Source: Candidatus Uhrbacteria bacterium RIFCSPHIGHO2_02_FULL_46_47 (GTDB taxonomy: Bacteria > Patescibacteriota > Patescibacteriia > GWA2-47-26). Taken from it: a DNA stretch of 33,161 bases. The notes below the pieces were generated by a model. The model was not told where the DNA came from. It saw nothing but the letters and a program-made list of their open reading frames with translations, and ran no database searches. The translations under genes and the position numbers were made by a program. Of this stretch, positions 47 through 33,060 are shown in pieces. The stretch covers positions 1-33,161 of the forward strand of contig MGDU01000005.1 of assembly GCA_001790815.1 (NCBI GenBank), read 5' to 3'. Every line of letters begins with the position of its first letter. Position 1 is the first letter of the stretch.

Positions 47-69
47 AATCAAAAGCGTAGCTTTTGATT
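47..69 (-). terminator. Perfect inverted repeat spanning the stop codon of the 430-aa gene
   Basis: AATCAAAAGC and its exact complement flank a 3-nt loop, and the TGA stop of the minus-strand gene lies inside the stem. No clean T-run follows on the minus strand, so it is a possible 3'-end hairpin rather than a proven intrinsic terminator. The neighbouring stretch 15-46 holds degenerate short repeats (TTACACG and GCTACA words). Confidence 0.35.
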
Positions 70-1341
70 TAGCTCCATTATAGCATGAAACTCGTCAGGA
101 GTCAGGGAGGGTTTGCCAGTTTGTTCCTGTAACTTAAGCACTTGCTCGGGAGAGGCGCGACTAATCATGGTCTTGTGCACAATTTGAAAATACTCTTGGT
201 TAAGCGGCGATTTGCGCCAGGCCTCAATGCCTTGCGCGCGCCGCACAATTGATTCCTTTTGCAAAAACTCTATTTTAGAAACAATCTTTTGCGCGCGCTC
301 CTGCGAAGTCCCGGCCAGCCGCCTGAAATCTTCAAGGGTGAGGATTGCTAGTTCCTCAATCGGCCCCACAAATTTCGGCGCCATCCGCACATCGGTGACT
401 TTTGAAGAAGGGGTAGAACGTAGTATGTAGGACGTAGTGGAAGATGGTGTGGCAGGCGGGAGTACGGTTTTCATTGTAGTGACCTGGTCACGGGTTGCGC
501 CTGCGGCAGTGACCTGGTCACGAACAATATTTTTTACTGCATTCACTTGTGGCTCCTTTTTAGGAATTTCCACTTTTGGTTTTGGAATTTCCTTGGGAAT
601 TGGGATTTGTTTGGAAATTGGTAATTGGGATTTGTAAATTCCGCCGGTAAGGCGGCTATACCGCTCTTCCAACTCCTGCTCCTCTTTCTTTCTGCTTTCC
701 TCATCCCGCCTTCCCGCATCCTCTGCCTGTTTCTTTTTCCACTCCTCAATCCGCTTTGCTTCCAGCGCCTTCCATTTTCCCTGAAACTCCCCAAATGCTT
801 TCTCAATAATTTTCATCACCCGAATTACATCTAATTCGCTAATCTCTAATCCGCCAATTCGCTTATTCCGATTAAGCATCTCACGCGTCTCCAACGTATC
901 CCGCACATCCCGCAAACGCGATGACACAATAGTTCGAAACCGCTTTTGCAACAATGAATCGCCTCCAAAAAGCTGAGCTTCTGCCGCAGGCGCAACCCGA
1001 AGCTCAGCTTTGACATTTTCAATAACCCGATCAATCACTTCTTCCAACTCAACGCGCAAAGGATGCTCCTCATGCGAAACCGGAACCACAGATTTTTGAA
1101 CCACAGATGTTGGTAACACAGATTTCACAGATGATCTTTGTGTTATCTGTGCTGGTTGTATCTGTGGTTTTGCCTTCTCCATCTTCTCATATTCCTCCTG
1201 GCTAACCCCCTTCGGCAAATCAACAACTCCTAATTCCTGATTCCTAATTCCTAATTCATCTTTGCCATACGGCAAAAGCTCTTCCCCGCGCAGGATATAC
1301 CATTTTCCATCTTGTCCTTTAACTAAGATTTCATCATTCAT
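49..1341 (-). CDS. Uncharacterised charged coiled-coil protein, 430 aa
   Basis: I do not recognise the family. The ORF track starts at an upstream TTG (1365). I prefer the ATG at 1341, but neither has a convincing Shine-Dalgarno. The N-terminal ~30 residues (KWYILRGEELLPYG) look like a small globular segment. A charged, Lys/Glu-rich, helical and probably coiled-coil stretch lies around residues 90-230, followed by a Pro/Lys-rich low-complexity linker and a helical C-terminus. Several low-complexity stretches are encoded by short DNA repeats: the GIRNQELG segment by AATTAGGAATC words, the SSVKSVLPTSVVQKSVV segment by CACAGAT words, and the KSQLPISKQIPIPKEIPKP segment by CAATTCC words. A 13-bp inverted repeat is also read through in frame. 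It sits downstream of the DUF3800/small-RNA region and is transcribed away from it. No signal peptide or membrane span is visible, so it is probably cytoplasmic. Function unknown. Confidence 0.75.
   Translation of the reverse strand: MNDEILVKGQDGKWYILRGEELLPYGKDELGIRNQELGVVDLPKGVSQEEYEKMEKAKPQIQPAQITQRSSVKSVLPTSVVQKSVVPVSHEEHPLRVELEEVIDRVIENVKAELRVAPAAEAQLFGGDSLLQKRFRTIVSSRLRDVRDTLETREMLNRNKRIGGLEISELDVIRVMKIIEKAFGEFQGKWKALEAKRIEEWKKKQAEDAGRRDEESRKKEEQELEERYSRLTGGIYKSQLPISKQIPIPKEIPKPKVEIPKKEPQVNAVKNIVRDQVTAAGATRDQVTTMKTVLPPATPSSTTSYILRSTPSSKVTDVRMAPKFVGPIEELAILTLEDFRRLAGTSQERAQKIVSKIEFLQKESIVRRAQGIEAWRKSPLNQEYFQIVHKTMISRASPEQVLKLQEQTGKPSLTPDEFHAIMELNQKLRF
478..523. repeat. Tandem copies of a 13-bp palindrome inside a coding region
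   Basis: The palindrome GTGACCTGGTCAC occurs twice, about 33 bp apart, within the 430-aa gene. It is translated as two RDQVT units, giving an in-frame peptide repeat. Confidence 0.8.
969..1011. repeat. 13-bp perfect inverted repeat in coding sequence
   Basis: AAAGCTGAGCTTC and its exact complement flank a 17-nt loop within the 430-aa gene. The same AAAGCTGAGCTT arm recurs as the hairpin behind the orphan tail at 10163-10197, so this is one repeat family used both inside and outside genes. Confidence 0.75.
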
Positions 1342-1358
1342 AGTATTGTGGATAACTC

Positions 1359-1387
1359 TTGACAACTCCCCCTTTTAGTTGTATATT
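1359..1387 (+). promoter_or_regulatory. Promoter for candidate small RNA 1
   Basis: TTGACA (1359-1364) and TATATT (1382-1387) are separated by exactly 17 nt on the plus strand, a near-consensus sigma-70-type promoter. No plus-strand protein gene follows. It overlaps the divergent start region of the minus-strand 430-aa gene. Confidence 0.6.
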
Positions 1388-1393
1388 AATATT

Positions 1394-1462
1394 GCAAGTG
1401 ATCGCAGGGTCATTTGTTATCAACTGCAGGATCCCGCTCAAAAGGCGGGATTCTTTGCGTTT
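1394..1462 (+). ncRNA. Candidate small RNA 1 (promoter plus terminator-like hairpin)
   Basis: A start near 1394 is predicted from the promoter at 1359-1387. The transcript would end in a hairpin with a 7-bp ATCCCGC/GCGGGAT stem (1431-1451, extendable by two pairs), followed by the imperfect T-rich run TTCTTTGCGTTT. It contains no usable ORF. It lies directly upstream of a second promoter-RNA-terminator unit on the same strand. Alternative: the hairpin is only a boundary element. No known RNA family was recognised. Confidence 0.4.
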
Positions 1463-1471
1463 CGCCCCCTC

Positions 1472-1499
1472 TTGACAGTAATTATACATGTGATAGAAT
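1472..1499 (+). promoter_or_regulatory. Promoter for candidate small RNA 2
   Basis: TTGACA (1472-1477), a 16-nt spacer and TAGAAT (1494-1499). A TG dinucleotide one base before the -10 makes it an extended -10 promoter. Confidence 0.65.
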
Positions 1500-1505
1500 G
1501 ATAGT

Positions 1506-1599
1506 GAAAGCAACAGCCGAATACTTCCCTTTAGGTAGGTGCTCCGAGTTACATCGGAGATAGGCTGCGCCCCCTAACCATGGGGGTTTTGTTTTTTTT
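1506..1599 (+). ncRNA. Structured small RNA of about 90 nt beside a DUF3800 gene
   Basis: The region has a strong promoter, no ORF and a clear intrinsic terminator: CCCCC, a 7-nt loop, GGGGG, then TTTTG and a run of T (1571-1599). Between these, CAGCC (1514-1518) can pair with GGCTG (1563-1567), closing a multistem that holds a 6-bp hairpin CTCCGA/TCGGAG with a 6-nt loop (1542-1559). The RNA ends 14 nt from the convergent stop codon of a DUF3800-family gene. From memory, conserved RNA motifs named DUF3800-I to -XI were described next to such genes, so this is a candidate member or relative, but I cannot test that here. The core resembles part of the M-box riboswitch, yet no downstream plus-strand gene exists. 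Confidence 0.6.
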
Positions 1600-1613: not shown

Positions 1614-2173
1614 TCAGATTTCTTCAATCAGATCATTACTCATACCCTGTTCATATAATTCTACCATGACTTCATCGCCTTCCGTAGCATCTCTAACAAA
1701 ACCGGCTATTGCATCGGCAAGGCGAAGCAATGGATCACTTTGCTCTCGCCCTCCTCGTACCTTGCGTACTTCAATGTTAAGTCGCCTAAGTCCTGCGGCA
1801 AATCGATGCCATTCAGATTGTAGTAACCCATCAACCATTATAGTAGTTTCATAAGGATGCTTTGCTTTTTGAAGAATTGCTTTTGCGGTTGTAAAAATAG
1901 TCAAATCAAGGTATGATTTACCATCCTCATATTTCGAATAAAATAATGATCTTCCGAATGCGCCGCTGGCGATGAGTTCACGAATATATTGTGTCTGCGC
2001 ATCTTGTTGGTATGGAACCATTTGCGCGTCCCTTTACGGCTGACTCGCTCAATTAATTCAAGCTTGGCCTGTAGGGTTTCTCTATCATGGTCTAATACTA
2101 CGACTGCCACAAGAAAAAAGTTTCCTTTAGTATCTTGCCCGGTCTCATCAACGTAACAGTATATTTTCTGCAT
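1614..2173 (-). pseudogene. DUF3800-family protein, interrupted by a one-base deletion
   Basis: Two overlapping minus-strand ORFs make one family-length protein of about 186 aa if one base is restored. The first frame carries the family's N-terminal YVDETG motif and FFLVAVVVLD strand. The second carries RELIASGAFGRSLFYSKY and the C-terminal SDPLLRLADAIAGFVRD signature. The frames meet in the HTNK region near 2000-2010, where one extra A or G would restore reading (total length 560 nt, one short of 187 codons). I choose the ATG at 2173, with AAAGG about 12 nt upstream. As I recall, DUF3800 proteins have an RNase-H-like fold and the Asp in Y-x-D-E would be an active-site candidate; the function is unknown. 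It may be a decaying gene, a sequencing indel or a frameshifted gene; no classic slippery heptamer is present. A small RNA converges on its 3' end. Confidence 0.8.
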
Positions 2174-2231: not shown

Positions 2232-2336
2232 TCAATTCTTCCATTTAAAAGCTCCACTTCCTTGATCAAAGTACGCCATGTCAAAATATTCCGGTTTGCC
2301 TTTTTCCTTTAAGGTACATACCAGCCCGCTTGACAT
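2232..2336 (-). pseudogene. Orphan 3'-tail copy of the 443-aa gene (34 codons)
   Basis: The minus-strand reading frame ends KGKPEYFDMAYFD...FKWKN-stop. It aligns with the true C-terminus of the 443-aa protein (TGKPQYFGMAYFD...FVWKL) at 14 of 26 positions, in the same register and ending at the same distance from the stop. The rest of the gene is absent. It is separated from the true 3' end by the plus-strand 83-aa gene, whose -35 box overlaps the upstream end of this fragment. It has no likely function of its own. It is best read as the displaced or duplicated end of a diverged allele. Confidence 0.7.
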
Positions 2337-2358
2337 AATGGACAAACTATACTATCCT
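2330..2358 (+). promoter_or_regulatory. Promoter of the 83-aa membrane protein gene
   Basis: TTGACA (2330-2335), a 17-nt spacer and TATCCT (2353-2358). Transcription would start near 2365, leaving a leader of about 22 nt with the Shine-Dalgarno AAGGAGGG at 2375-2382. Confidence 0.6.
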
Positions 2359-2386
2359 ATGGGCGTATCTAGATAAGGAGGGAACC

Positions 2387-2638
2387 ATGGCAGATCCCGG
2401 CGGACACAGCAGTGGAGACAGCTACGTCGCAACGATTGTCAGCGTAGGAATACCCTTTGTGTTGCTCCCTGTCGCTATCGTAGTCATTGCGGTGAAAGAT
2501 GGCCTACAGGCGCTTCTTGCCAAAAAGGAGGTGCGCGAGGATCCGCACGAAGCCGCTCTCAAACGGATCCGATTCTTCATCAACAATCCTGACTACCGCC
2601 ACCCCGATCCCCCTGCCAGCCGCTCCGATCATCACTAG
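2387..2638 (+). CDS. Small single-span membrane protein, 83 aa
   Basis: No family recognised. After a polar N-terminus (GGHSSGDSY), residues ~14-36 form one hydrophobic span rich in Val, Ile and Pro. A basic/acidic amphipathic segment follows (KDGLQALLAKKEVRED), then a His/Pro-rich end (DHH). The positive charge after the span suggests N-out/C-in topology. Expression signals are complete and strong: promoter, AAGGAGGG five bases before ATG, and an immediate intrinsic terminator whose first stem base is the last base of the stop codon. It is on the strand opposite to its large neighbours and sits exactly between an orphan 3' tail and the true 3' end of the 443-aa gene, which suggests an inserted cargo gene. 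Confidence 0.75.
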   Translation: MADPGGHSSGDSYVATIVSVGIPFVLLPVAIVVIAVKDGLQALLAKKEVREDPHEAALKRIRFFINNPDYRHPDPPASRSDHH

Positions 2639-2670
2639 GGAACGCCCGCACGCGTTCCCTTCTTTTTTTT
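2638..2670 (+). terminator. Intrinsic terminator of the 83-aa gene
   Basis: GGGAACGC and GCGTTCCC form a perfect 8-bp stem around a 6-nt loop, followed by TTCTTTTTTTT. The T-run overlaps the TAA stop of the convergent 443-aa gene, so the two genes are packed end to end. Confidence 0.85.
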
Positions 2671-4000
2671 ATAATTTCCACACAAACATCTTTAATTGCG
2701 CGTCAAAATAGGCCATGCCAAAATATTGCGGCTTGCCCGTGCTTTTCATAAGATTTCCAAGCCGTGCGGCGAATTTTGCCGATTCCGCTTCAGTCATTTT
2801 CAGCGCGCCAATAAGAAGCGCGCGCAAAAATTGCGCCGCATACTGCGGGGCAGACGGCTGAATCTTAAATCCTTCAAGCGCGGCGTCTTTTCCTTGGCCG
2901 CGAAGATATTCCTCATAAAACGCGCGCCATTTTTCCGATTGGCCAAGCATCATATCAAGAGCACCGCGCTGCGCCAGCAAAACCAACGCGGCAAGCGCCT
3001 TGTTTTTAAGCGGCCCTTTGCCAGGCCCCGGAAGCGCCGCGTCATAACAAATATCCGATATCAGCTGGGTTGACTGCGCAGTGGTTTTTAGTTTTTCAAG
3101 CTCACTTGCAACCTCTTTTGGCAATGGCTCGGAAAATGCGCGCCGCGCCCGCGCAATAAGCTCGGTTTGATCTTTTTTAAACCGCTCCACGCGCTCAATA
3201 AGCGGAAGATTTGGATAAGCAAAAAATCCTTTTTGCTTCATTCGCGCCAGCACTTCTTCAGTTTTTTTGTCGCGCACCTCCTCAGCGCGCCCCTTGCGAA
3301 ATACTACCAGCTTTCCATTGCGTTCAAAAACATAGTCTTCTTCAATCCCTCCGGCTTCCATGGATGAAATTTTCAATTGCTCGTAAACATCAATTAATTT
3401 TTTCACTTTTCCCCGATCCGCATCCTTAAGCCCTTTGGTATTAAGAGAGCTGGTAAGGTATGTTGTTTTTATAAGAGTGGACGCTCTTCCACCTCCTACT
3501 GCTTTTACATAGTCGCCAGTCCAATTTCCAACAGTGCCGAGCACGCGCCTTTCTCCTTCCTGGAGAGTTACCTCAGTTAGCGGCTCGTCGTTTGCCGCAA
3601 GCGCGGCGCGCAATTTTTGTTTAAACGGATCGCGTTCTTCAAATACATAGATGCGCACAAGTTTTGCTTCAATTTTTTGCCAAAGATCAATATCCGGGTG
3701 CAAAAGCGCAACTGTCGCATGCGTTCTTAAAAATTCCTCAACTTCCTGCTCGGAAAGCGCAGGAAGTGCGCAAGCGGCAAGCAGACGCGCGAGGCGCTCA
3801 TACTCCGCGGCCGCGGTTTTTTCTTCCAAAGAAGCGCTTTTTTTCGCCTCCTCTATCAGCCACGCAAGATAACGATAAGATTGCAAAGCTTCAGCGACAT
3901 CATCATCAAAAACCAGGTTGTTAACCAATTCATTCCAAGTGTCGCGCACATACGACGGCGCTAAAGCCATGGGTTCTTTGGAAATAGTAGGAAGTGGCAT
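2669..4000 (-). CDS. Uncharacterised soluble protein, 443 aa, paired with the 444-aa gene
   Basis: No family recognised. The sequence is mostly predicted helix with many Ala, Glu and Lys residues and no signal peptide or membrane span. A more structured middle (around residues 150-270) contains GNWTGDYVKAVGGGRAST and a short strand pair VFERNGKLVVFRKG. The conserved-looking C-terminus is KPQYFGMAYFDAQLKMFVWKL, the part that recurs as an orphan tail at 2232-2336. The ATG at 4000 lies three bases after the stop of the 444-aa gene and has no Shine-Dalgarno, so translation is probably coupled; an internal Met at residue 11 is an alternative start. Together with the 444-aa gene and the VirB6-like gene upstream it forms a cluster that may serve a type IV secretion-like surface machine. 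That is context only. Confidence 0.75.
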   Translation of the reverse strand: MPLPTISKEPMALAPSYVRDTWNELVNNLVFDDDVAEALQSYRYLAWLIEEAKKSASLEEKTAAAEYERLARLLAACALPALSEQEVEEFLRTHATVALLHPDIDLWQKIEAKLVRIYVFEERDPFKQKLRAALAANDEPLTEVTLQEGERRVLGTVGNWTGDYVKAVGGGRASTLIKTTYLTSSLNTKGLKDADRGKVKKLIDVYEQLKISSMEAGGIEEDYVFERNGKLVVFRKGRAEEVRDKKTEEVLARMKQKGFFAYPNLPLIERVERFKKDQTELIARARRAFSEPLPKEVASELEKLKTTAQSTQLISDICYDAALPGPGKGPLKNKALAALVLLAQRGALDMMLGQSEKWRAFYEEYLRGQGKDAALEGFKIQPSAPQYAAQFLRALLIGALKMTEAESAKFAARLGNLMKSTGKPQYFGMAYFDAQLKMFVWKL

Positions 4001-11777: not shown

Positions 11778-14700
11778 CTACGGAGCTATGACGATATTCC
11801 CTGCAAATGGAGTCCAGGGATTATCTCCTCCAATTACTGGATTCACTTCATCACATTCTACATCAATACAGTTGGCTGCATCGTTAGCTAATCCGACATC
11901 TCCAGGACAGGTTCCATTGCAAAATCCCCAATTATCTACGACCTGAATTTTTGGATTGAAAACGCAACACCCACCATAGAGCGATTTAAAATCAGTGCTC
12001 GGACACGCAACTCCTGTTTCCCAATTCGGATCATCAGTGCCGGCGCAGGAGTATAAATGCTCCACAGTGTATGGCTCGGTTTGACACGCTCTTGAGCTTG
12101 TACCAAGTCCGTGAGTTGTGTCTTCTCGTTTGCATTCTGTAGTACCAGGGGCGGCCGCTTTGGCATTTTTATACAATCCATCCGCGCTTCCGGTAATATA
12201 GCCGTCGTCCCAATCAATTCGCATCCGGCGAATAGGCAAATGCTGATCCGCGGCAAAGGCAAAATATCGCGCGGTGGCCACTAAGAAACCATTGACGCCA
12301 ATGACTTGTGATCCCACAGCATACTCACCATTGATGGCCAGCGGTTCAGTCGCACTGCCCTGCGTTAAGGACGGCGCTGTGCCTATCGCGGCCCGAATCT
12401 GAGGCGCTCTTGCGCTACTACCAGAACCTGCTATTAGTCCGGTAGTATTAATTCCCATGCGGTTGTCCCATGTATTTCCTGCAAGAAAATACCATTTATT
12501 TGTCGTACTCCAGCCAAAGAGACCCCCCAAACCCGACGATTTGGCAAAAAGTTTTTCAAAACGTGCTATTCCACGAGTTACGGTTCCAACAGTTAAGGTT
12601 TCTTCGTCGCTTACCGGCAAAGGTGGGGTTTGTGGAGTAATTTCACCAGTTAAGTCTGAACCTGATGGTGCAAGATATTGCACTGCGCAGTCTTCTATAC
12701 CACCTTCACCCTCGGCATCCTCTATATCGGCGCAAGCCCAGGGCCAGCCGGCAAACGGCACTACATTTCCTGCCACATCAAGGGCAAACGAATCAAGCCG
12801 ATTATGATTCAAAAACCAGGGATTAGAATTTAAAGCAGTAGGCGGATCATTTTGTCCCAATGAGCTTGCAAAAGGCGTTGGCTGTTTATTTGAGAGATAA
12901 ATACTAGCGACACCATCTAGCAAACATCTCTCAATTCCGTTACCGCCTCCGCTTCCACTGGATCCGGCATCACCTGAACCGCACTGTGACCAAAGTTTTT
13001 CCGTATCCGGCGCGCTGGCGCGAGCTCCAAGGGCCTCATCAATTTTTGCAATATAGTCGCAGTGAGGATGATAATGAAAATTTACATCAAACTCAACAGG
13101 ATAGGAACCACCCCCCGTATTGCAAAGTGCTAGACGCAACCAAAGAAGTTTTTGAGTTTCATTATCAAAATTTAGGAGAACAAAAGCACCCTCGTATTGT
13201 TCAACACCCACATCATCCCATGTTCCATCTGCTTCACAGCTCACTGCACTGTTGCCATTATTCATAAGAGGAAAGCTGCTTTCATTTTTAAGCAAAGGAA
13301 TAATTTTATTGGTCATGACATGTTCATTCGCTTCATTAGGTCCGCGATCATTTCCGCTCTCTCCATCAAAATTATTATCCGCACCCCAAGCCCACCAAGC
13401 TTCCTCCGGATTAAAGCGCATATCAAACATGTAGAAAGCTTCATCACTAATCTCTACATCTCCGTCGGTGTGTTGAGCAGGAAAGGTTGCATTGTACGAA
13501 CCCTTCAAAATTCTTCCTGTCCCGGGATTAATACTAAACTCCCCATCCCGCTCGCTTGTATTACTCCCATTTTTTCCATTTACCCTAATCACAACTCTTT
13601 GAATATCATACCGATAAATATTCTTACTGCGCATGTCATAGGTTAAAGCGCGCAATTCTCCATCGCTGGTGCTTAACGCCCGAAACTCAATATCCTCTTT
13701 GATTCTTTCGAAAGAACTCTCCCCTCCCAACAAACAATAATATCTCCCATACGGCCCTTCAGCCAAACTGTCAGGATTGCCAACAGTATAGCTGGCCTGA
13801 ACCGCGCGGGCGTAAATATCCTGCTCAGAGGGCAATTGGTCAACCGGAAGCCATGTAAGACAAGGATAGGTCGTTTGATCGCCATTTAAGACAGAACGAT
13901 TTTGCGCCATATCATCCTCAAGACAATATCCGGCCAAGCCAATAACCGTGCGCGCGGCTCCTTTTGTTTGCCAGGTTCCTCCGGCGGTTTCGCACGCCAG
14001 TTTAGTGCTATTAAATGCCGGAAATCCAACACAGAGATTGTCCGGAATTTCAACTGAGCTTCCCGCGGTTCCGGCCAAAAGCGGGAAATAACGCGTCTCC
14101 CCGCCGTATTCAACTTTTTGATACTTGCATTCGCAGTTTGAAGAATCTGACAGTTCGCGCGCGTGTTCAGGTTCCACTTCGTTTTCACACAGCTTTATAT
14201 TTTCATAGCTTAGATTATTTTTTGTATTTTCCGTTTTTGGAAATGGGGAGGCGCGCTCCGGATAGGCACGGCAGAATTTTTCTTCCGAGTGCGTTGTATT
14301 GAAACTCACTCCATCAGGAGAAATCACGCATCGGCCATCCGCGGTACAATCCTGTGAACCCAGACATCCTCCTGCACCGCTCCCCGGCGTGCAAGGAGTG
14401 CTAAGTACATGAGCAAGCACGTATTTTGGAGCTTCTCGCGTACCAACATTTACTTCCTGAAGCTGATCAATCCGGTAAAGGTTGGCAATTGAGTAACCAG
14501 TATAGTCTTGTCCTGAAAAAGTACGGTCGCGCAAGCGATACATAGTTTCCTTAAGAATGCCTAACTCACAGCGGGAAGGCGAACCGCCAGAGGCGGGGTG
14601 CCAAATGCCGCCTAACTCTCCGCATTTTGCCGAATCGTTAATTGTACATCTCTGCGCCAGGCCATCCCAATCAAATCCGGCATTGGCGCATGAGGCGGGA

Positions 14701-17700
14701 TCAACTTGCGGCCGAAGATTTAAAAGCGGGCGCGGAACCCAAGAACCGCAGGTATTAATGGAAACGCTTCCTTCCTCCGGAGTTGCGGCCGAAGCATTAC
14801 AGCGGCCCAAAATATCGCATACCGTCTTAAACCGTCCAAGCTGATCATCATAGGTAAATCGCGCGGAGGCGCATTGGAACCACTCCGCGCAAACCCGATC
14901 ACGCTGAACTTTGAGCACCGTATTGGTGTTATTGGCCGCCCCTGCTCGGCATATTCCGCCGCCGCCTGTACATGCTGAGGAAAGAACTTGCCCAACTCCT
15001 GCTCCGCTTGCGACACAAACTTTTCCATGCTGGGTTCCTCCTACACAAATAGTTTCCTGAGAAGAAACGGTATTGACCAGCGCGCCTCTTTGCGCGTCGC
15101 TTAAGAAATAGGTTTGCTCCGCGCTCCAAAGTTTTGACGGATTTTCTTTGTTGTCAAATAAAACACATCCTTGCGCGCGCGAAACTTGTCCTTTGCAGGC
15201 CGAGCGCGCATCAATGAGCCGCGTGTTGTCTTTAAGGTAATAGGTTTTGCCAACTCCATTTACATCAACATCCGTAGGATCAGTAAGCGCGGTACAGGTT
15301 GCCTGCGGAGCCGGACAGGCCCCGGCTTTGCCGCCATAGCTTGGATCGGCGTTTTGCCAAAGTCCAAAGGTCGTGCCGCCAATTAAGTAGGTGTTTATCA
15401 CATCAACTTTAACGCGCGGCCGCACATCTCCGCCCGGAGCACCTTCAAGATCTTCAACCGTAACCGCGCCATAGCAGGGCGTTTCAGCTTCGCACTGTCC
15501 AGTTGTGGGAGTAAGTTGTTTCCATTTTCCGCCCGCGCCTTTGGTGCAGGTTTCCACATTGCAATCAACCCCGCCGCATTCTCCGGGATCAAGTGTATTT
15601 CCACCCGGATCAACGCAGGTGCCGGTTACAAAATTCCACGCGCCAAATCCTTGACACTCTTCTTTGGTATTAAAATATATTACGGCAAGAGTTGCGGGAT
15701 CAGTATCAGTGGCTCCATCTACCACGGGCTGTTTTTGCGCTCTAAACCACCCCAGATAAGTGCCGGCGCCAATTGCCACATTTGTTTTCCACTCGCATCC
15801 GGAAGCGCCGGGATTTTTAAAGTAGGCCGGACTGTTGTCTGAGCGCGTCCAGGCCTCGCACCCTCCGGCTTCAAACGTACAAAGCGTTTCATTGTACTTG
15901 TTTGGATTATTGATGCGGCGCAGAGTGATATCCGGCGCAGACTCTGCGGCAAACGCAGTACATCCTTTTTGTTTTTCATTGCAAGCTTTGGCAGAGGCCT
16001 TGTCAATGACCACAAAGCGATGAAGGTCATTTGGAACTGTCCAATCATCAACTGTTAAATTAAGATTATATGAGCAATAAGTCTCATCTGTTCCAATGTC
16101 ACAAACATTTATACTATTAACAAAACAGTCACCCGGCGCGCCGCGACAGATGCCGGAATTGGTGGTATTGAATTGTTGACTATACTGAGAATCCAAACCG
16201 CGCGTGTCAATCAAATCCGTACAGCCCACAGCTTCCTTGCGGCAAAGCGAAGAGAAGGATTTTAGATATTGCGGCGGCGTACCGGCACGATCTTTGTACT
16301 CGCGACAACCCAGCATTGCTCCGCGCAAATATCCTCCGCCGGCTTCAGAGGAAAGCGTATCGCAAGAAGCCGGAATTCTTGATGAGTTTTTCACCAGATA
16401 AACCGTGTCGCGGACTTCGCGTAAAATCACATCATCAAGATAAAAAGTCGCGGTTGATCCGCTCACATTGCGGAAAAGAAGTTTTGGATCATTTAGATAA
16501 TTGCAAGTTGAGGTGCCTTGAGGAATTGTACAGCGCACCTCGCCTCCAATTGAACAGGGAGTAGAGGCAGTAACAGTAACTGCGCCGGTAGAAGGACAGG
16601 GCAAAATATCAGCTTGAGCAACAGTTGAGAGTGCTAATGGTCCTAATTCAAATCTTTGCCAATCCGGAGTAAGCGCTACTGCGCCGAGAGCTCCGCCGAA
16701 AATATCTTCCGGTGCGCCAGTTCCGCCATGGTTTTTTAGGAGCGCGCGCAGTTTGCTTCCCGCAGTGCCTTTGGCATTGAAGGAAACAAAGTAATTGCCT
16801 CCGGGAGTAAGGAGCGGGGAAGCCCCAGTCGGATTATTCAATCTCCTATCCGTGCCGCCATCATTTGGCACACTGCCGTTTTTGAGCGAATGCCCTTGCA
16901 CTGTAAGCGCCTCACTGGAATATTCACCGTAAAGGGAAGGCCAGCCAATTGTGCTAAGCGGAGTGGTAATAGATTCAAAATCTTCGCTAAATACTTGCGC
17001 GATATTTGATCCTGTATTTCCCTTAAATCCGCGACAACCGTTAAGAGCCGCAGAGCATCCTTTGGAAAGTGACGGCGCGCCAAGATAAAGACATTGCTTA
17101 AGTATTCCATCCCATGAACCATGCGAAGCCAAGCAAGCTGTTTCTTCCAATCGCAAACGCAAAGCATCAGGTGTTTCTCCAGTTTTTGGCGCAATTTCCG
17201 GCAGGCGCGGCAGTCCAGTCCAGCGGAAGCTTTGACACTCATCAGTGGAGATAATCGTGCGGCTTAAGAAACGATTAAAGATATTGCCATTTGCGTCATA
17301 AAATGCGCGGCAATCAGTGCGCTCCTCAGGAGTCAGATCTGAATCCGGGGCAGGATCGCAAATAGCTTGATTAGTTCCTGCGTCTGTTGCAGTATTGTCT
17401 TCACAATTAACAGTAACAATGCCGCCGGTCGTAGTGGGAGGAGTTACTGAATAATTCGTACAAGGCGGTATTGCAGGGCCAGCAGTAAAGGTTTTAATCA
17501 AGTCGTTACCGGCGCTATACGAACGGTTAGATCGCTTAAAGCTCCAGGTTTTAAGTTGATACCCGGTTGTATCTGATCCTTCCCAAGTAAAGTAGGTTTG
17601 AGAATCAGGCGCGGGAACTTGACAAGCGCGCAAATCTGAATAGTATTGTCTTTGCTCGGTGCGCAAATTGGTAAATTCTTCACAGCCGTCATTTTCCGCG

Positions 17701-20639
17701 TTGCAGACAGTAGATTTTTGTGGAATAATCGGATACAAATCCTCTTGCGGAGTTGGCGGAGTTGTAGGCCAAAGACGATCAAGATCAGCAGTGGAAAGTT
17801 TTGTCTGCAAAGCCACGCGCGTAAAGGCCGGTTCAAACTTGGAAGGCAGTTTCAAATATGTATCATAACCAACGCATTCGCCCGGACATTTGTCCAGGGC
17901 AGTGGCAATGGCGGAAATAGGGCTTAGCCCTGCGGCAGGGCTAAGCCCTGAAGGCGTGTATAATTCGCACCCAACTTCTTCGCCTCGGCAGTAGCGCGTA
18001 TAACCTTCACAAAGAGAATTTTGATTGGCTTCACCAGTACAGCCAAGGTAATCCGGCGGAATGCGGTAATATGATTTTTTAATCTCAGTTGTAGTACCAT
18101 AACCTTCACGATAATTTGTGGCCTGCGCACCTGCTTCAAGTTGGACTGCGTCAGCATAAATATCAATAAGGATAGTTGAACTGCCACTTCGTAAAAGAAA
18201 AACTTGCGCTTTTACTGCATTTTGTGGCGCAGTAAATCGGCAAGAGCGACGAACATAACTTGTTGTATTTCCTGCCTCAGTTGAAGGTGCAAATTCAAGT
18301 AGGGCGTCATTACCTGGTGTTGTTAAAGTACAAGTAGTATCTGCGCTACTCAAGTCAATCAAACTACTACTCTCGGTTGAGAGCCTAACAAGTGCATGTG
18401 CACGTTCAGTAATATCACTCCCTCCTTTGGCTGACAAAGAAATTGCATAGGTTAAACCGCCTTGAATAGGAATATTAGCTTGATGAACTGCACCTGAAGA
18501 AAGTTTTATTGCGCCTCTGCCTTCAAATGATTGCGCTCCATCTGAAGACCATTGCCCAGCAGCTACTACATCTAGCCAATCATCCGGCGCGCCTGTTGGA
18601 GCAACATCATCCTTTTCAAACCCGGGATTTTTAATAAGATTTGGCGCCGGAGACGAGATAAATTCCGTACAGCCCTCATTTGTTGCGTCGCATTTTGGAG
18701 CATCGCGATCAAGATAAAGCCGCGAAGAGTTTGGATCCCACGTGCCGGCAGGAGTTTGCGCGGTAAGTAGCGCTGTGCATCCGGCGTTTTCCGCATTGCA
18801 TGAACCAAAGTCCACGGTATTTTCCAAAATTGAAACCACACTTCCTTCTTTTGGCGTAAACGTATCGCAACTCGCGTATTGCTTATCGCAAGTATCCGCG
18901 TCAAACCGCCAAGTATTTCTCTCGCGCGTGCAATATCCCCAAGCTTGGCATCCTCCCTGATTATCCTCGGCCACGCAGTGTTTCAAATCCGCGCAGGTAT
19001 CTTGCCGACCGCTTTGCAATCCGTCCAGGCTGGCGCCGGAGACAATCGCGCCGCAGGTTGCTGGAGGCGCGTCAAGAACCCAATTTGGATCAACCAGTCC
19101 GCAAAAACGATCTTCCGCAGGATCAGCGGTTTTTCCTTGGCATCCGGGACTGTCTCCTTCTTTGGTATAGCCGTCAAGCACGTCGCCAAACGTTGCAGTG
19201 GATACAGTGGATGCAGTGGATGCGTCCTGTAAAATCCTTTGCGCGGCAAATTCCCAACCCAGCGGAATGATACGCAATAATCGAAGTTTCTTAAGTGATG
19301 AATTAGGATAGGCAGTTAAATAGTCTCCTTCATTTGGTGTTCCTTCATTAGCAGGACTGATATATCCAAACGGCCGGTTGCGTTCAAGATACCCTTTTTG
19401 CACTGCCTCAGAAACTGTAAGCGGCGTCCCGGCAAGCGCTTGTTGAATCGCGGCCATAAACTTAGTGTCAATGGTGCATTGAAACTGCGTGGCAAATTTT
19501 TGTTCATTAATACCTGTAGGACAAGAGCCAAGTTCAGTTACATAATCAAAACCGCCATTGCTTACCCGAATTTGGGGGGTAAGGAGCGAAGCAACAACTG
19601 GCGAAAGTCCGGGCGCAACCGCGACTCCAGCCGATGGCGACGGCCCGCCTACTTCACTGGCTAGATTGGGAAAAGTAGTTGGCTCGTCAGAAACCAGTCC
19701 GGCCATAATAGACTTAAGCACGCGGGAAATCAGGGTGTTGGTAAAGGTTGACAAAATTGTCGTGCCAACCGCAGACCAAACCGCGCCTGAACGCGAACCA
19801 ATAAGACCGCTTGTAATATCGCCTGTTGTAATATTATTGCCACCTTTTTCTTTGGCAAGTTCGTCAAATTTTGATTTTATCGCCGTAGATGGCGTGGTAA
19901 TATTGCCTGAAATAATCCCGCTTTGCGGCAAAATCCCTTCGCTTTCCTTGCGTTTATTCGCCGCTTCTTCTTTTTTGCGCTTAATGACAATGCGAAATTC
20001 TTCATTCGCTTTAAAGGCCTGGCCAAGATCAGTATTATCCGAATCAAATGAGAGCGAAGCGTGCTTGAGCAGTTCTTCTGAACTGGTCAATTGCCGCGAA
20101 AAATTTTGCCAATTGCCAAGGGTTTGGACAAAATCGCATTTTGGCTTTGGCCTTTGAAACCGCTCAGCAAGACCAAGCGCGATAGAAAGGGCAATATTGG
20201 GAAGCGCTGGACCACACAGACTAAATCCAAGATCGCCCCAAATCGGATTTTCTGCAAGCGTGCCAATAAATTCTCCAGCGCCATCATAAGCCACAGAGGT
20301 AAGATAAGTTCCCCAATCTTCCCTTTCAAAACAGGCATTTTCGCCTTTGCAACCCGAAGCTAGTCCAACAGCCAAATCATAGGCAAGCTGTTGACCCATT
20401 AATGTTACTGTATTAACCAGCCCCATTAGAGCTGAAGCCCAAAGTGCGTCCCATACACCAAATTCAATGTTTTCTTTAATTTCTTGCGTAGCATATATAG
20501 CAACTGGCGAAACAGGCGCTTCTTCTGTCGGAATAGCAAAAACTGGCCGCGGCGCAAATACCGTTGCGACAACAAAAACAAAAGAAAAACAGACGAGCAG
20601 GGCTGAAATAGTAATGCGACGAGCAAAACGACTAAGCAT
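11778..20639 (-). CDS. Giant secreted cysteine-rich surface protein, 2953 aa
   Basis: An N-terminal signal peptide (basic MLSRFARR, hydrophobic core, cleavage near PVFA) leads into a 300-residue non-repetitive region. Most of the rest consists of Cys-rich units around a C-x6-GC core, for example CDATNEGCTEF, CNAENDGCEEF, CNEKQKGCTAF and CRGEEVGCELY. At least two beta-sandwich, carbohydrate-binding-like modules are embedded: one around residues 665-845 (NLIKNPGFE through QLEAGAQATNY) and one around 1215-1405 (FSEDFE through YLDDVILRE). Near the C-terminus an IDWDDG...EHLYSC segment resembles a PKD domain, and a final Cys-rich cassette ends FAGNIVIAP. That cassette recurs as an orphan at 10200-10619. 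The abundant Cys implies disulfide cross-linking outside the cell. There is no Shine-Dalgarno and no anchor at the C-terminus. A host-contact or sheath role beside the VirB6-like gene is inference. Confidence 0.85.
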   Translation of the reverse strand: MLSRFARRITISALLVCFSFVFVVATVFAPRPVFAIPTEEAPVSPVAIYATQEIKENIEFGVWDALWASALMGLVNTVTLMGQQLAYDLAVGLASGCKGENACFEREDWGTYLTSVAYDGAGEFIGTLAENPIWGDLGFSLCGPALPNIALSIALGLAERFQRPKPKCDFVQTLGNWQNFSRQLTSSEELLKHASLSFDSDNTDLGQAFKANEEFRIVIKRKKEEAANKRKESEGILPQSGIISGNITTPSTAIKSKFDELAKEKGGNNITTGDITSGLIGSRSGAVWSAVGTTILSTFTNTLISRVLKSIMAGLVSDEPTTFPNLASEVGGPSPSAGVAVAPGLSPVVASLLTPQIRVSNGGFDYVTELGSCPTGINEQKFATQFQCTIDTKFMAAIQQALAGTPLTVSEAVQKGYLERNRPFGYISPANEGTPNEGDYLTAYPNSSLKKLRLLRIIPLGWEFAAQRILQDASTASTVSTATFGDVLDGYTKEGDSPGCQGKTADPAEDRFCGLVDPNWVLDAPPATCGAIVSGASLDGLQSGRQDTCADLKHCVAEDNQGGCQAWGYCTRERNTWRFDADTCDKQYASCDTFTPKEGSVVSILENTVDFGSCNAENAGCTALLTAQTPAGTWDPNSSRLYLDRDAPKCDATNEGCTEFISSPAPNLIKNPGFEKDDVAPTGAPDDWLDVVAAGQWSSDGAQSFEGRGAIKLSSGAVHQANIPIQGGLTYAISLSAKGGSDITERAHALVRLSTESSSLIDLSSADTTCTLTTPGNDALLEFAPSTEAGNTTSYVRRSCRFTAPQNAVKAQVFLLRSGSSTILIDIYADAVQLEAGAQATNYREGYGTTTEIKKSYYRIPPDYLGCTGEANQNSLCEGYTRYCRGEEVGCELYTPSGLSPAAGLSPISAIATALDKCPGECVGYDTYLKLPSKFEPAFTRVALQTKLSTADLDRLWPTTPPTPQEDLYPIIPQKSTVCNAENDGCEEFTNLRTEQRQYYSDLRACQVPAPDSQTYFTWEGSDTTGYQLKTWSFKRSNRSYSAGNDLIKTFTAGPAIPPCTNYSVTPPTTTGGIVTVNCEDNTATDAGTNQAICDPAPDSDLTPEERTDCRAFYDANGNIFNRFLSRTIISTDECQSFRWTGLPRLPEIAPKTGETPDALRLRLEETACLASHGSWDGILKQCLYLGAPSLSKGCSAALNGCRGFKGNTGSNIAQVFSEDFESITTPLSTIGWPSLYGEYSSEALTVQGHSLKNGSVPNDGGTDRRLNNPTGASPLLTPGGNYFVSFNAKGTAGSKLRALLKNHGGTGAPEDIFGGALGAVALTPDWQRFELGPLALSTVAQADILPCPSTGAVTVTASTPCSIGGEVRCTIPQGTSTCNYLNDPKLLFRNVSGSTATFYLDDVILREVRDTVYLVKNSSRIPASCDTLSSEAGGGYLRGAMLGCREYKDRAGTPPQYLKSFSSLCRKEAVGCTDLIDTRGLDSQYSQQFNTTNSGICRGAPGDCFVNSINVCDIGTDETYCSYNLNLTVDDWTVPNDLHRFVVIDKASAKACNEKQKGCTAFAAESAPDITLRRINNPNKYNETLCTFEAGGCEAWTRSDNSPAYFKNPGASGCEWKTNVAIGAGTYLGWFRAQKQPVVDGATDTDPATLAVIYFNTKEECQGFGAWNFVTGTCVDPGGNTLDPGECGGVDCNVETCTKGAGGKWKQLTPTTGQCEAETPCYGAVTVEDLEGAPGGDVRPRVKVDVINTYLIGGTTFGLWQNADPSYGGKAGACPAPQATCTALTDPTDVDVNGVGKTYYLKDNTRLIDARSACKGQVSRAQGCVLFDNKENPSKLWSAEQTYFLSDAQRGALVNTVSSQETICVGGTQHGKVCVASGAGVGQVLSSACTGGGGICRAGAANNTNTVLKVQRDRVCAEWFQCASARFTYDDQLGRFKTVCDILGRCNASAATPEEGSVSINTCGSWVPRPLLNLRPQVDPASCANAGFDWDGLAQRCTINDSAKCGELGGIWHPASGGSPSRCELGILKETMYRLRDRTFSGQDYTGYSIANLYRIDQLQEVNVGTREAPKYVLAHVLSTPCTPGSGAGGCLGSQDCTADGRCVISPDGVSFNTTHSEEKFCRAYPERASPFPKTENTKNNLSYENIKLCENEVEPEHARELSDSSNCECKYQKVEYGGETRYFPLLAGTAGSSVEIPDNLCVGFPAFNSTKLACETAGGTWQTKGAARTVIGLAGYCLEDDMAQNRSVLNGDQTTYPCLTWLPVDQLPSEQDIYARAVQASYTVGNPDSLAEGPYGRYYCLLGGESSFERIKEDIEFRALSTSDGELRALTYDMRSKNIYRYDIQRVVIRVNGKNGSNTSERDGEFSINPGTGRILKGSYNATFPAQHTDGDVEISDEAFYMFDMRFNPEEAWWAWGADNNFDGESGNDRGPNEANEHVMTNKIIPLLKNESSFPLMNNGNSAVSCEADGTWDDVGVEQYEGAFVLLNFDNETQKLLWLRLALCNTGGGSYPVEFDVNFHYHPHCDYIAKIDEALGARASAPDTEKLWSQCGSGDAGSSGSGGGNGIERCLLDGVASIYLSNKQPTPFASSLGQNDPPTALNSNPWFLNHNRLDSFALDVAGNVVPFAGWPWACADIEDAEGEGGIEDCAVQYLAPSGSDLTGEITPQTPPLPVSDEETLTVGTVTRGIARFEKLFAKSSGLGGLFGWSTTNKWYFLAGNTWDNRMGINTTGLIAGSGSSARAPQIRAAIGTAPSLTQGSATEPLAINGEYAVGSQVIGVNGFLVATARYFAFAADQHLPIRRMRIDWDDGYITGSADGLYKNAKAAAPGTTECKREDTTHGLGTSSRACQTEPYTVEHLYSCAGTDDPNWETGVACPSTDFKSLYGGCCVFNPKIQVVDNWGFCNGTCPGDVGLANDAANCIDVECDEVNPVIGGDNPWTPFAGNIVIAP
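17919..17949. repeat. 15-bp perfect inverted repeat in frame in the giant gene
   Basis: AGGGCTTAGCCCTGC and its exact complement with a one-base centre. Translated as the internally repeated peptide SGLSPAAGLSP near residue 900. Confidence 0.85.
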
Positions 20640-32280: not shown

Positions 32281-32967
32281 CTATCTCTTATGCTCTATCA
32301 TGATATCATGAAATAATTTTTCCTGCTTCACCTCCACAATCCTTTGCTTGCACAATTCCAATAGCGCCAGGAAGCTCACGATAATTTCGGTTTTTTCTTT
32401 TGAAGAACCCACAAAATGCTTAAACGACATCATAGCTTTTTCCACAATCATGGCTTTGAGCCGATCAATGCGCTCGCCAATTGAAATCGCCTTGAGCACG
32501 ATTTTTTTGGGAATGCGCACCAGTGGCTCCAACGCCTTGATCACTGCCAAAAATGTTTCGTGCAAAACATTTACCGTAACTTTTTGTGGCGGACGAAATA
32601 CGCGCTCCACCGGCATTTTTTCCCTAAAGTAGACAAAATTGCCTTGCTTAATTATGGCTTCAATTTGGCGCGAAGCATCATGATAGAGTTTCAAAATCTT
32701 CAATTGTGCTTCCAACGGTACGCCATCATCTTCTACTTCCAAATTGGGAAACAGCGCTTGCGATTTTATAAGCAAAAGTTTTGAAGCGACCAGCAAAAAA
32801 TCCGCCACCTCTTCCGGGGGCAATTTCGCCTCCTGCACGTATTTCAAAAAGTCCTCGGCAATTTTTGCCAAAGACACGGTGGTAATATTCAGCTTCTCCC
32901 CTTCAATCATGGAAAGTAGCAAATCCAACGGCCCTTCAAATTGTTGTGATTTCACGGCAAACGACAT
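32281..32967 (-). CDS. scpA: Segregation and condensation protein A (kleisin), 228 aa
   Basis: Kleisin subunit that bridges the SMC heads in chromosome condensation with ScpB. The start is the ATG at 32967, where the invariant N-terminal signature begins (FEGPLDLLLSMIEGEKLNI). DFLLVASKLLLIKSQALFP follows in the N-terminal helical bundle, and the C-terminal winged helix includes TEIIVSFLALLELCKQRIV. Length is normal. The 52 extra tracked residues lie in an AT-rich repeat. scpB usually follows scpA but is not here; yraN follows after a 231-nt gap. Confidence 0.94.
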   Translation of the reverse strand: MSFAVKSQQFEGPLDLLLSMIEGEKLNITTVSLAKIAEDFLKYVQEAKLPPEEVADFLLVASKLLLIKSQALFPNLEVEDDGVPLEAQLKILKLYHDASRQIEAIIKQGNFVYFREKMPVERVFRPPQKVTVNVLHETFLAVIKALEPLVRIPKKIVLKAISIGERIDRLKAMIVEKAMMSFKHFVGSSKEKTEIIVSFLALLELCKQRIVEVKQEKLFHDIMIEHKR

Positions 32968-32971
32968 AAAA

Positions 32972-33060
32972 TATAATGCCAATTTACAAATGTCATTCAA
33001 ATCTACAAATACGAATTCGCAATTTGTAGATTGGCATAAGATTCGTAGATTTGCATTGCA
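32972..33060. repeat. AT-rich palindromic spacer, copy 4, before scpA
   Basis: AAATCTACAAATACGAATTC and GCAATTTGTAGATTGGCAT form complementary arms, followed by GATTCGTAGATTTGC. It lies directly upstream of a start codon that has no Shine-Dalgarno. Confidence 0.75.

Follow-up and report, generated by a model that had tools for sequence, protein, structure and literature searches.

The second of two short promoter-terminator units beside a DUF3800 gene in a 33,161-nt stretch of Candidatus Uhrbacteria DNA (here, the window) very probably gives rise to a small structured RNA partnered with the DUF3800 protein encoded next to it. This partnership is proposed because the predicted fold is conserved and covaries among relatives, the RNA occupies a fixed convergent position, RNA class tracks protein clade, and the RNA resembles the known DUF3800-IX RNA. 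To our knowledge, DUF3800-linked RNAs have been present in catalogues for years (as Rfam entries) without a known function. The analysis adds two undescribed RNA classes, termed types A and B, one of which is tied by fold to DUF3800-IX.

The segment is flanked by two minus-strand genes, one at 49-1341 and the DUF3800 gene, whose stop lies at 1614, with two plus-strand units between them. The promoter of unit 1 is TTGACA-17-TATATT (1359-1387) and that of unit 2 is TTGACA-16-TAGAAT with a TG preceding the -10 element (1472-1499); both agree with the sigma-70 consensus at 11 of 12 positions, and all type-A relatives of unit 2 carry a TTGACA promoter at the same place. Sites with at least 11 matching positions occur four times on the two strands of the window, compared with 0.7 expected under a first-order Markov model, and two of the four are these. 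Each unit also contains a terminator-like hairpin, at 1428-1454 with a weak T run and at 1569-1587 with a strong one, and no open reading frame (ORF) of at least 60 amino acids was present over the segment. Predicted folding energies were -30.9 kcal/mol for unit 1 (1393-1460; z of -4.9 versus shuffles), for which the terminator hairpin accounts in part, and -34.3 kcal/mol for unit 2 (1506-1598; z of -3.4). The first-pass annotation of this DNA had described two near-consensus promoters leading into short ORF-free segments that end in hairpins, the second with a multistem and a strong terminator, and all of these elements were found where it had placed them.

The predicted unit 2 RNA is about 93 nt long (1506-1598, plus strand), with its 5' end placed from the promoter. 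Its conserved core (1514-1567) consists of three helices, P1 (1514-1518/1563-1567), P2 (approximately 1522-1541) and P3 (1542-1559), with GAA and AUA in the junction. The core is followed by the terminator hairpin P4 and its T run (1569-1598), which can also pair with the 5' end of the RNA to form a further helix (P0) that is present in the minimum-energy folds of both the window and a relative in genome G034. The unit ends about 15 nt before the stop codon of the convergent DUF3800 gene. With R2, a covariance model built from four type-A cores, the core of the window scored 59.5 bits, the window being one of the four training sequences.

A DNA search of 144 relatives returned a single true match to unit 2, in G034, which belongs to a different family. 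In this genome, the outer stem CAGCC/GGCTG is changed to TAGCC/GGCTA, the third helix is altered on both sides, the stem and loop of P4 are identical to those of the window, and a DUF3800 gene remnant lies downstream of the RNA in the same convergent position. A protein search of 381 genomes of the class with the C-terminal fragment of the window's DUF3800 protein yielded further DUF3800 genes, and every locus read out from that search (including L025) showed a structured RNA and its promoter tail-to-tail with the gene. Whole-genome searches with R2 in the 381 genomes identified six convincing type-A RNAs, so that unit 2 has relatives in five other genomes (G034, G021, G095, G332 and G002), in which the fold is kept via compensatory changes and the RNA lies tail-to-tail with a DUF3800 gene or remnant. 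Those R2 matches scoring no more than about 25 bits that were inspected proved to be terminators or coding-like sequence, and two weak R1 matches (G054 and G173) were not accepted. An exact-motif scan for P3 gave two matches, in a Ca. Uhrbacteria metagenome-assembled genome (MAG) and in another MAG, one of which was a plain hairpin and the other a different hairpin element.

Type-A cores are about 46 to 54 nt long and are arranged P1-GAA-P2-P3-AUA-P1', while type B is arranged P1-GAAGG-P2-GAGAUU-P3-AUA-P1' and has members at G000:C22, in G002, G111, G304 and G028, and twice in G133. The G000:C22 member adjoins the second, intact DUF3800 gene of the window's own genome (G000). At G133:C2 (L026/L120, approximately 32760-32983 of the contig), a type-B RNA and a DUF3800-III RNA stand in tandem beside one DUF3800 gene. 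In alignments built without structure information, with the pairing chosen after the alignments had been viewed, the covariation score was 0.427 for type A (alignment A6), compared with 0.193 for shuffles, with eight pairs changed on both sides, and 0.471 for type B, compared with 0.218, with ten such pairs. The observed score of either type was above that of every shuffle, and sliding the pairs abolished the signal. As MAFFT shifts P3 of the window by one base, the type-A pair count is conservative. The window's RNA lacks the 5' AAGTAAGTC common to four of its relatives and may itself be decaying.

At both gathering and relaxed thresholds, Rfam searches of the window returned just weak matches to unrelated families, with no match to the DUF3800-IX model (RF02968) at E values up to 10, and types A and B were likewise unmatched at the related loci. 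Rfam did recognise DUF3800-II, -III, -V and -IX RNAs adjoining other DUF3800 genes. Within DUF3800 loci, the next best matches of R2 were DUF3800-IX RNAs, aligned in register, and reciprocally RF02968 aligned with the whole G034 core at 16.9 bits, below its gathering threshold of 36.8 bits. Type A has the P1-P2-P3 three-way junction of RF02968, in the same order and with CGAA and UAGG at the junction, and strong covariation of the common fold was seen when 16 type-A and IX sequences were aligned jointly, in an alignment that was fitted to the model and thus leans towards it. We conclude that type A is, as judged from sequence and predicted fold, a diverged relative of DUF3800-IX outside the family threshold, in which P1 is shorter and a terminator hairpin has been added. 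Further shared features are CCGAAC between P1 and P2, UAGG following P3, the P2 cap CCGUAUGG in relatives of the window, and the convergent position at the 3' end of the DUF3800 gene. In contrast, P1 comprises 11 bp in the DUF3800-IX model and 5 bp in the window, the type-A core is followed by a separate terminator hairpin closed by P0, and the partner protein of type A belongs to another clade. DUF3800-II, -III and -V RNAs resemble unit 2 in having their own promoter and in lying convergently beside DUF3800, but their folds differ from those of types A and B, neither of which matched the respective Rfam models. Among DUF3800 clades without an Rfam RNA match (L110, L112, L113 and L101; L042, L056, L040, L054 and relatives), the loci inspected carried convergent promoter-hairpin units of other kinds, with TAAGTCC common to the units of one clade. 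Further undescribed DUF3800 RNAs are likely to exist.

The DUF3800 gene of the window (approximately 1614-2173, minus strand) does present its 3' side to the RNA, as the first-pass annotation had it, but the gene is frameshifted, which that annotation had missed. It is spread over two frames (ORFs 1901-2197 and 1614-2021), with the N-terminal part, including a YVDETG motif, in one and the C-terminal half in the other. The N-terminal piece scored 20.4 bits against PF12686 (Pfam cut-off, 21), while the intact homologue in G021 scored 29 bits. Programmed frameshifting was rejected, as the breaks differ between the window's genome and G034 and the gene is intact in G021 and G095. DUF3800 proteins have an RNase H fold according to a published structure prediction (PMC10910872), and some members have been linked to CRISPR systems (PMC10910872, PMC12669027).

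All 45 loci that were measured, covering types A, B, II, III, V and IX, had the RNA on the strand opposite the DUF3800 gene, with the end of the RNA within about 90 nt of the stop of that gene, mostly within 40 nt. On a tree of 90 DUF3800 proteins, the distribution of RNA classes required 9 changes, compared with 43.4 when labels were shuffled. The partner proteins of types A and B formed one clade (support of 99) next to its sister, the class II partners, in what is a quick tree with several long branches. Promoter scores averaged 10.2 of 12 for the RNAs, 8.6 upstream of DUF3800 genes and 8.0 for shuffles. From these patterns we infer that each RNA is cognate to the DUF3800 protein beside it and is probably produced in excess.

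The DUF3800 gene is broken at four of the six type-A loci, in each case in a different manner: by a frameshift in the window, by absence of the stretch around VDESGQDT in G034, by an internal deletion in G002, and by loss of all but a C-terminal remnant in G332. All four retained the core of the RNA together with its promoter and terminator. For type B, the sole exception to the rule that the RNA lies beside a DUF3800 gene was G028 (L156, G028:C1:21973-22029), where no DUF3800 gene was found within 900 nt or, at an E value of 1e-4, elsewhere in the genome, and where the RNA has a poor -10 element. Loss of the protein with retention of the RNA favours the RNA as the harmless or protective half of the pair. 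Genomes that have lost the type-A protein mostly retain another DUF3800 protein, so cross-protection is possible. A strain-specific DUF3800 gene that was essential in a Legionella transposon screen, and was discussed alongside antitoxins (PMC7811196), points the opposite way.

We propose that the RNA is transcribed from its own strong promoter, folds into the three-way junction of P1, P2 and P3 plus the terminator hairpin, and ends a short way before the 3' end of the convergent gene. It would then bind its cognate DUF3800 protein, with the RNase H fold predicted for that family. The mechanism that we prefer, while holding it at somewhat less than an even chance, is similar to that of a toxin-antitoxin pair, in which abundant RNA would keep the nuclease inactive. 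Such an arrangement would allow the protein gene to degenerate and the RNA to remain, which is the state seen in the window, and the loci with a dead protein and a kept RNA make this idea testable. Omega RNA serves as a scaffold for TnpB, and by analogy the DUF3800-linked RNA could instead act as a scaffold, working with the RNase H-fold protein and not against it by activating it or targeting it to foreign nucleic acid. The fold, the CRISPR links of some DUF3800 proteins and the cognate coevolution of RNA and protein are consistent with such an effector ribonucleoprotein, which we nevertheless regard as rather unlikely: the RNA has no free guide-like stretch, as its variable part, P3, is base-paired and shows covariation, four type-A RNAs have survived the loss of their protein, the type-A DUF3800 protein was unmatched in PADLOC, and no relatives of the system were found in phages, plasmids or viral contigs.

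Retention of promoter-bearing RNA at four type-A loci after protein loss, together with the G028 RNA in a genome with no DUF3800 gene found, also makes it improbable that the roles are reversed, i.e., that the harm comes from the RNA, or that the RNA is a substrate for degradation or processing by the DUF3800 nuclease, unless the missing protein is replaced by other DUF3800 proteins. The essential Legionella gene, the RNase H fold and the poor -10 element of the G028 RNA-only locus would agree with such a reversal. The constant convergent geometry, with a nearly constant overlap of RNA and gene of 18 to 22 nt in class II and of 17 to 22 nt in classes II and III together, could alternatively point to antisense regulation, whereby the RNA controls DUF3800 mRNA through overlapping or nearby 3' ends and owes no more than its stability to the fold. 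However, the conserved and covarying part is the core and not the overlap, type-A and type-B cores lie mostly 10 to 40 nt outside the gene, and the RNAs persist where the gene does not, all of which renders antisense control very unlikely. Finally, chance promoter-terminator pairs between genes, giving no functional RNA, would fit unit 1 taken alone, and hairpins like the one at its end do recur in these genomes; for unit 2, this explanation is refuted by covariation, fixed position and clade tracking, and we give it almost no credence.

Unit 1 itself (1393-1460, plus strand) is a two-hairpin segment ending in the weak terminator. Apart from a generic terminator in its own genome, searches there, in genomes of the same family and across the class gave no homologues, and BLAST matches in G332, G095, G002 and contig C20 of its own genome were coding sequence or generic terminators; hairpins resembling its terminator recur in these genomes. 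It had no credible Rfam match, and no second such unit was seen alongside the other type-A genes. At a comparable place in G001, a promoter-like site and a short hairpin, unrelated in sequence to unit 1, are divergent from the orthologue of gene 49-1341, and the same slot in G002 holds two tandem units, of which the second lies tail-to-tail with a NYN-domain nuclease gene. As a guess, unit 1 may be an RNA left behind when the rest of a module was lost. The first-pass annotation had suggested that the pair of units may be the RNA component of a DUF3800 system, to be checked by a search with the Rfam DUF3800 motifs, by covariation in homologues and by presence beside other DUF3800 genes of the clade. 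The Rfam search left the window unmatched and the G034 relative below the RF02968 threshold. Covariation and recurrence beside other DUF3800 genes bore the reading out for the conserved, convergent unit 2 but not for unit 1, so that the RNA component is one RNA and not the pair.

The DUF3800 module of the window sits between a 430-aa gene (49-1341, minus strand; matches in six of six other genomes searched) and a 443-aa gene (2669-4000, minus strand), both without a Pfam family. Just upstream of the DUF3800 gene lies a partial copy of the 3' end of the 443-aa gene (2238-2324, minus strand; tail profile E value of 1.8e-11, 86% DNA repeat), the 443-aa gene thus being both the source of the copy and the array-side flank. 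Also in this slot, positions 2330-2660 (plus strand) hold a TTGACA promoter, a good ribosome-binding site, an 83-aa ORF that includes a likely membrane helix, and a terminator, all pointing towards the 3' end of the 443-aa gene. Elsewhere in the window, a 2953-aa ORF (11778-20639, minus strand) had a weak carbohydrate-binding domain as its sole match. The size and gene content of the genome suggest that it is a member of the Candidate Phyla Radiation.

The same slot in other genomes is occupied by arrays of small genes (DUF3800, NYN nuclease and an unnamed "IEIDQS" family), and a convergent promoter-RNA unit accompanies almost every one of them. The spacers of the arrays are copies of the 3' end of the gene orthologous to 2669-4000. 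G034 contig C36 (L179, 1-6480) carries seven copies of a 107-nt repeat at a spacing of 730 to 1030 nt. Between these are a class II DUF3800 gene, the broken type-A DUF3800 gene, a NYN gene, two short unknown genes and two genes of the unnamed family starting MHIEIDQSGKIE, each array gene with a convergent TTGACA promoter and hairpin RNA. A similar array in G021 (contig C61, L178, 1-7400) has the orthologue of the 430-aa gene at its far end and includes a four-helix-bundle cassette with no obvious RNA.

The IEIDQS family (proteins of about 150 aa starting MxIEIDQSGKIE, with no Pfam match) was found in 4 of 286 genomes at six loci (L178:2252-2698, L178:4061-4510, L179:2396-2860, L179:5630-6196, L187 and L188), and at every one of these a promoter-RNA unit is convergent with the gene. 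Stacked P1 and P2 helices are common to five of these RNAs and to one similar RNA beside another G034 gene; all counted pairs in their alignment are standard, and three have both sides changed. The G027 RNA has a different fold. NYN genes with a convergent promoter and short hairpin RNA occur at L161:2860-3621 (G002:C4) and L179:4806-5437, and the NYN RNAs of G034 and G002 are alike, while that of G021 is unlike them. No paper linking the NYN or IEIDQS families with such RNAs was found in the literature. Homology between DUF3800 and IEIDQS is not claimed, as profile comparison aligned the first strand alone, with a probability of 1.4%.

The arrays suggest the same arrangement for two more protein families, and the phenomenon may thus exceed DUF3800. 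The chances are about even that DUF3800 and its RNA exemplify a wider class of compact modules found in bacteria with small genomes, in which a small nuclease-like protein (DUF3800, NYN or IEIDQSGKIE) is combined with a structured RNA convergent at its 3' end, and which can pile up as cassette arrays at one slot, each unit following a copy of the same host gene 3' end; the window would then be a worn-down array. The sample for this wider class is small, with the NYN and IEIDQS association coming from few loci. If this reading is true, RNA partnership is not special to DUF3800.

Compared with known systems, the preferred mechanism would share with type III toxin-antitoxin systems (ToxIN-like) a nuclease held by a small structured RNA. 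However, the type III RNA is a tandem repeat located upstream of the toxin in one transcript, whereas unit 2 is a single convergent RNA with its own promoter, and the protein fold of type III systems differs from that of DUF3800. The arrays are similar to integron-like cassette arrays in consisting of single-gene units of 0.7 to 1 kb, separated by related repeats, at one chromosomal slot. They differ in that no integrase was seen in them, the repeat is a coding copy of a host gene 3' end, and nearly every unit carries a convergent RNA.
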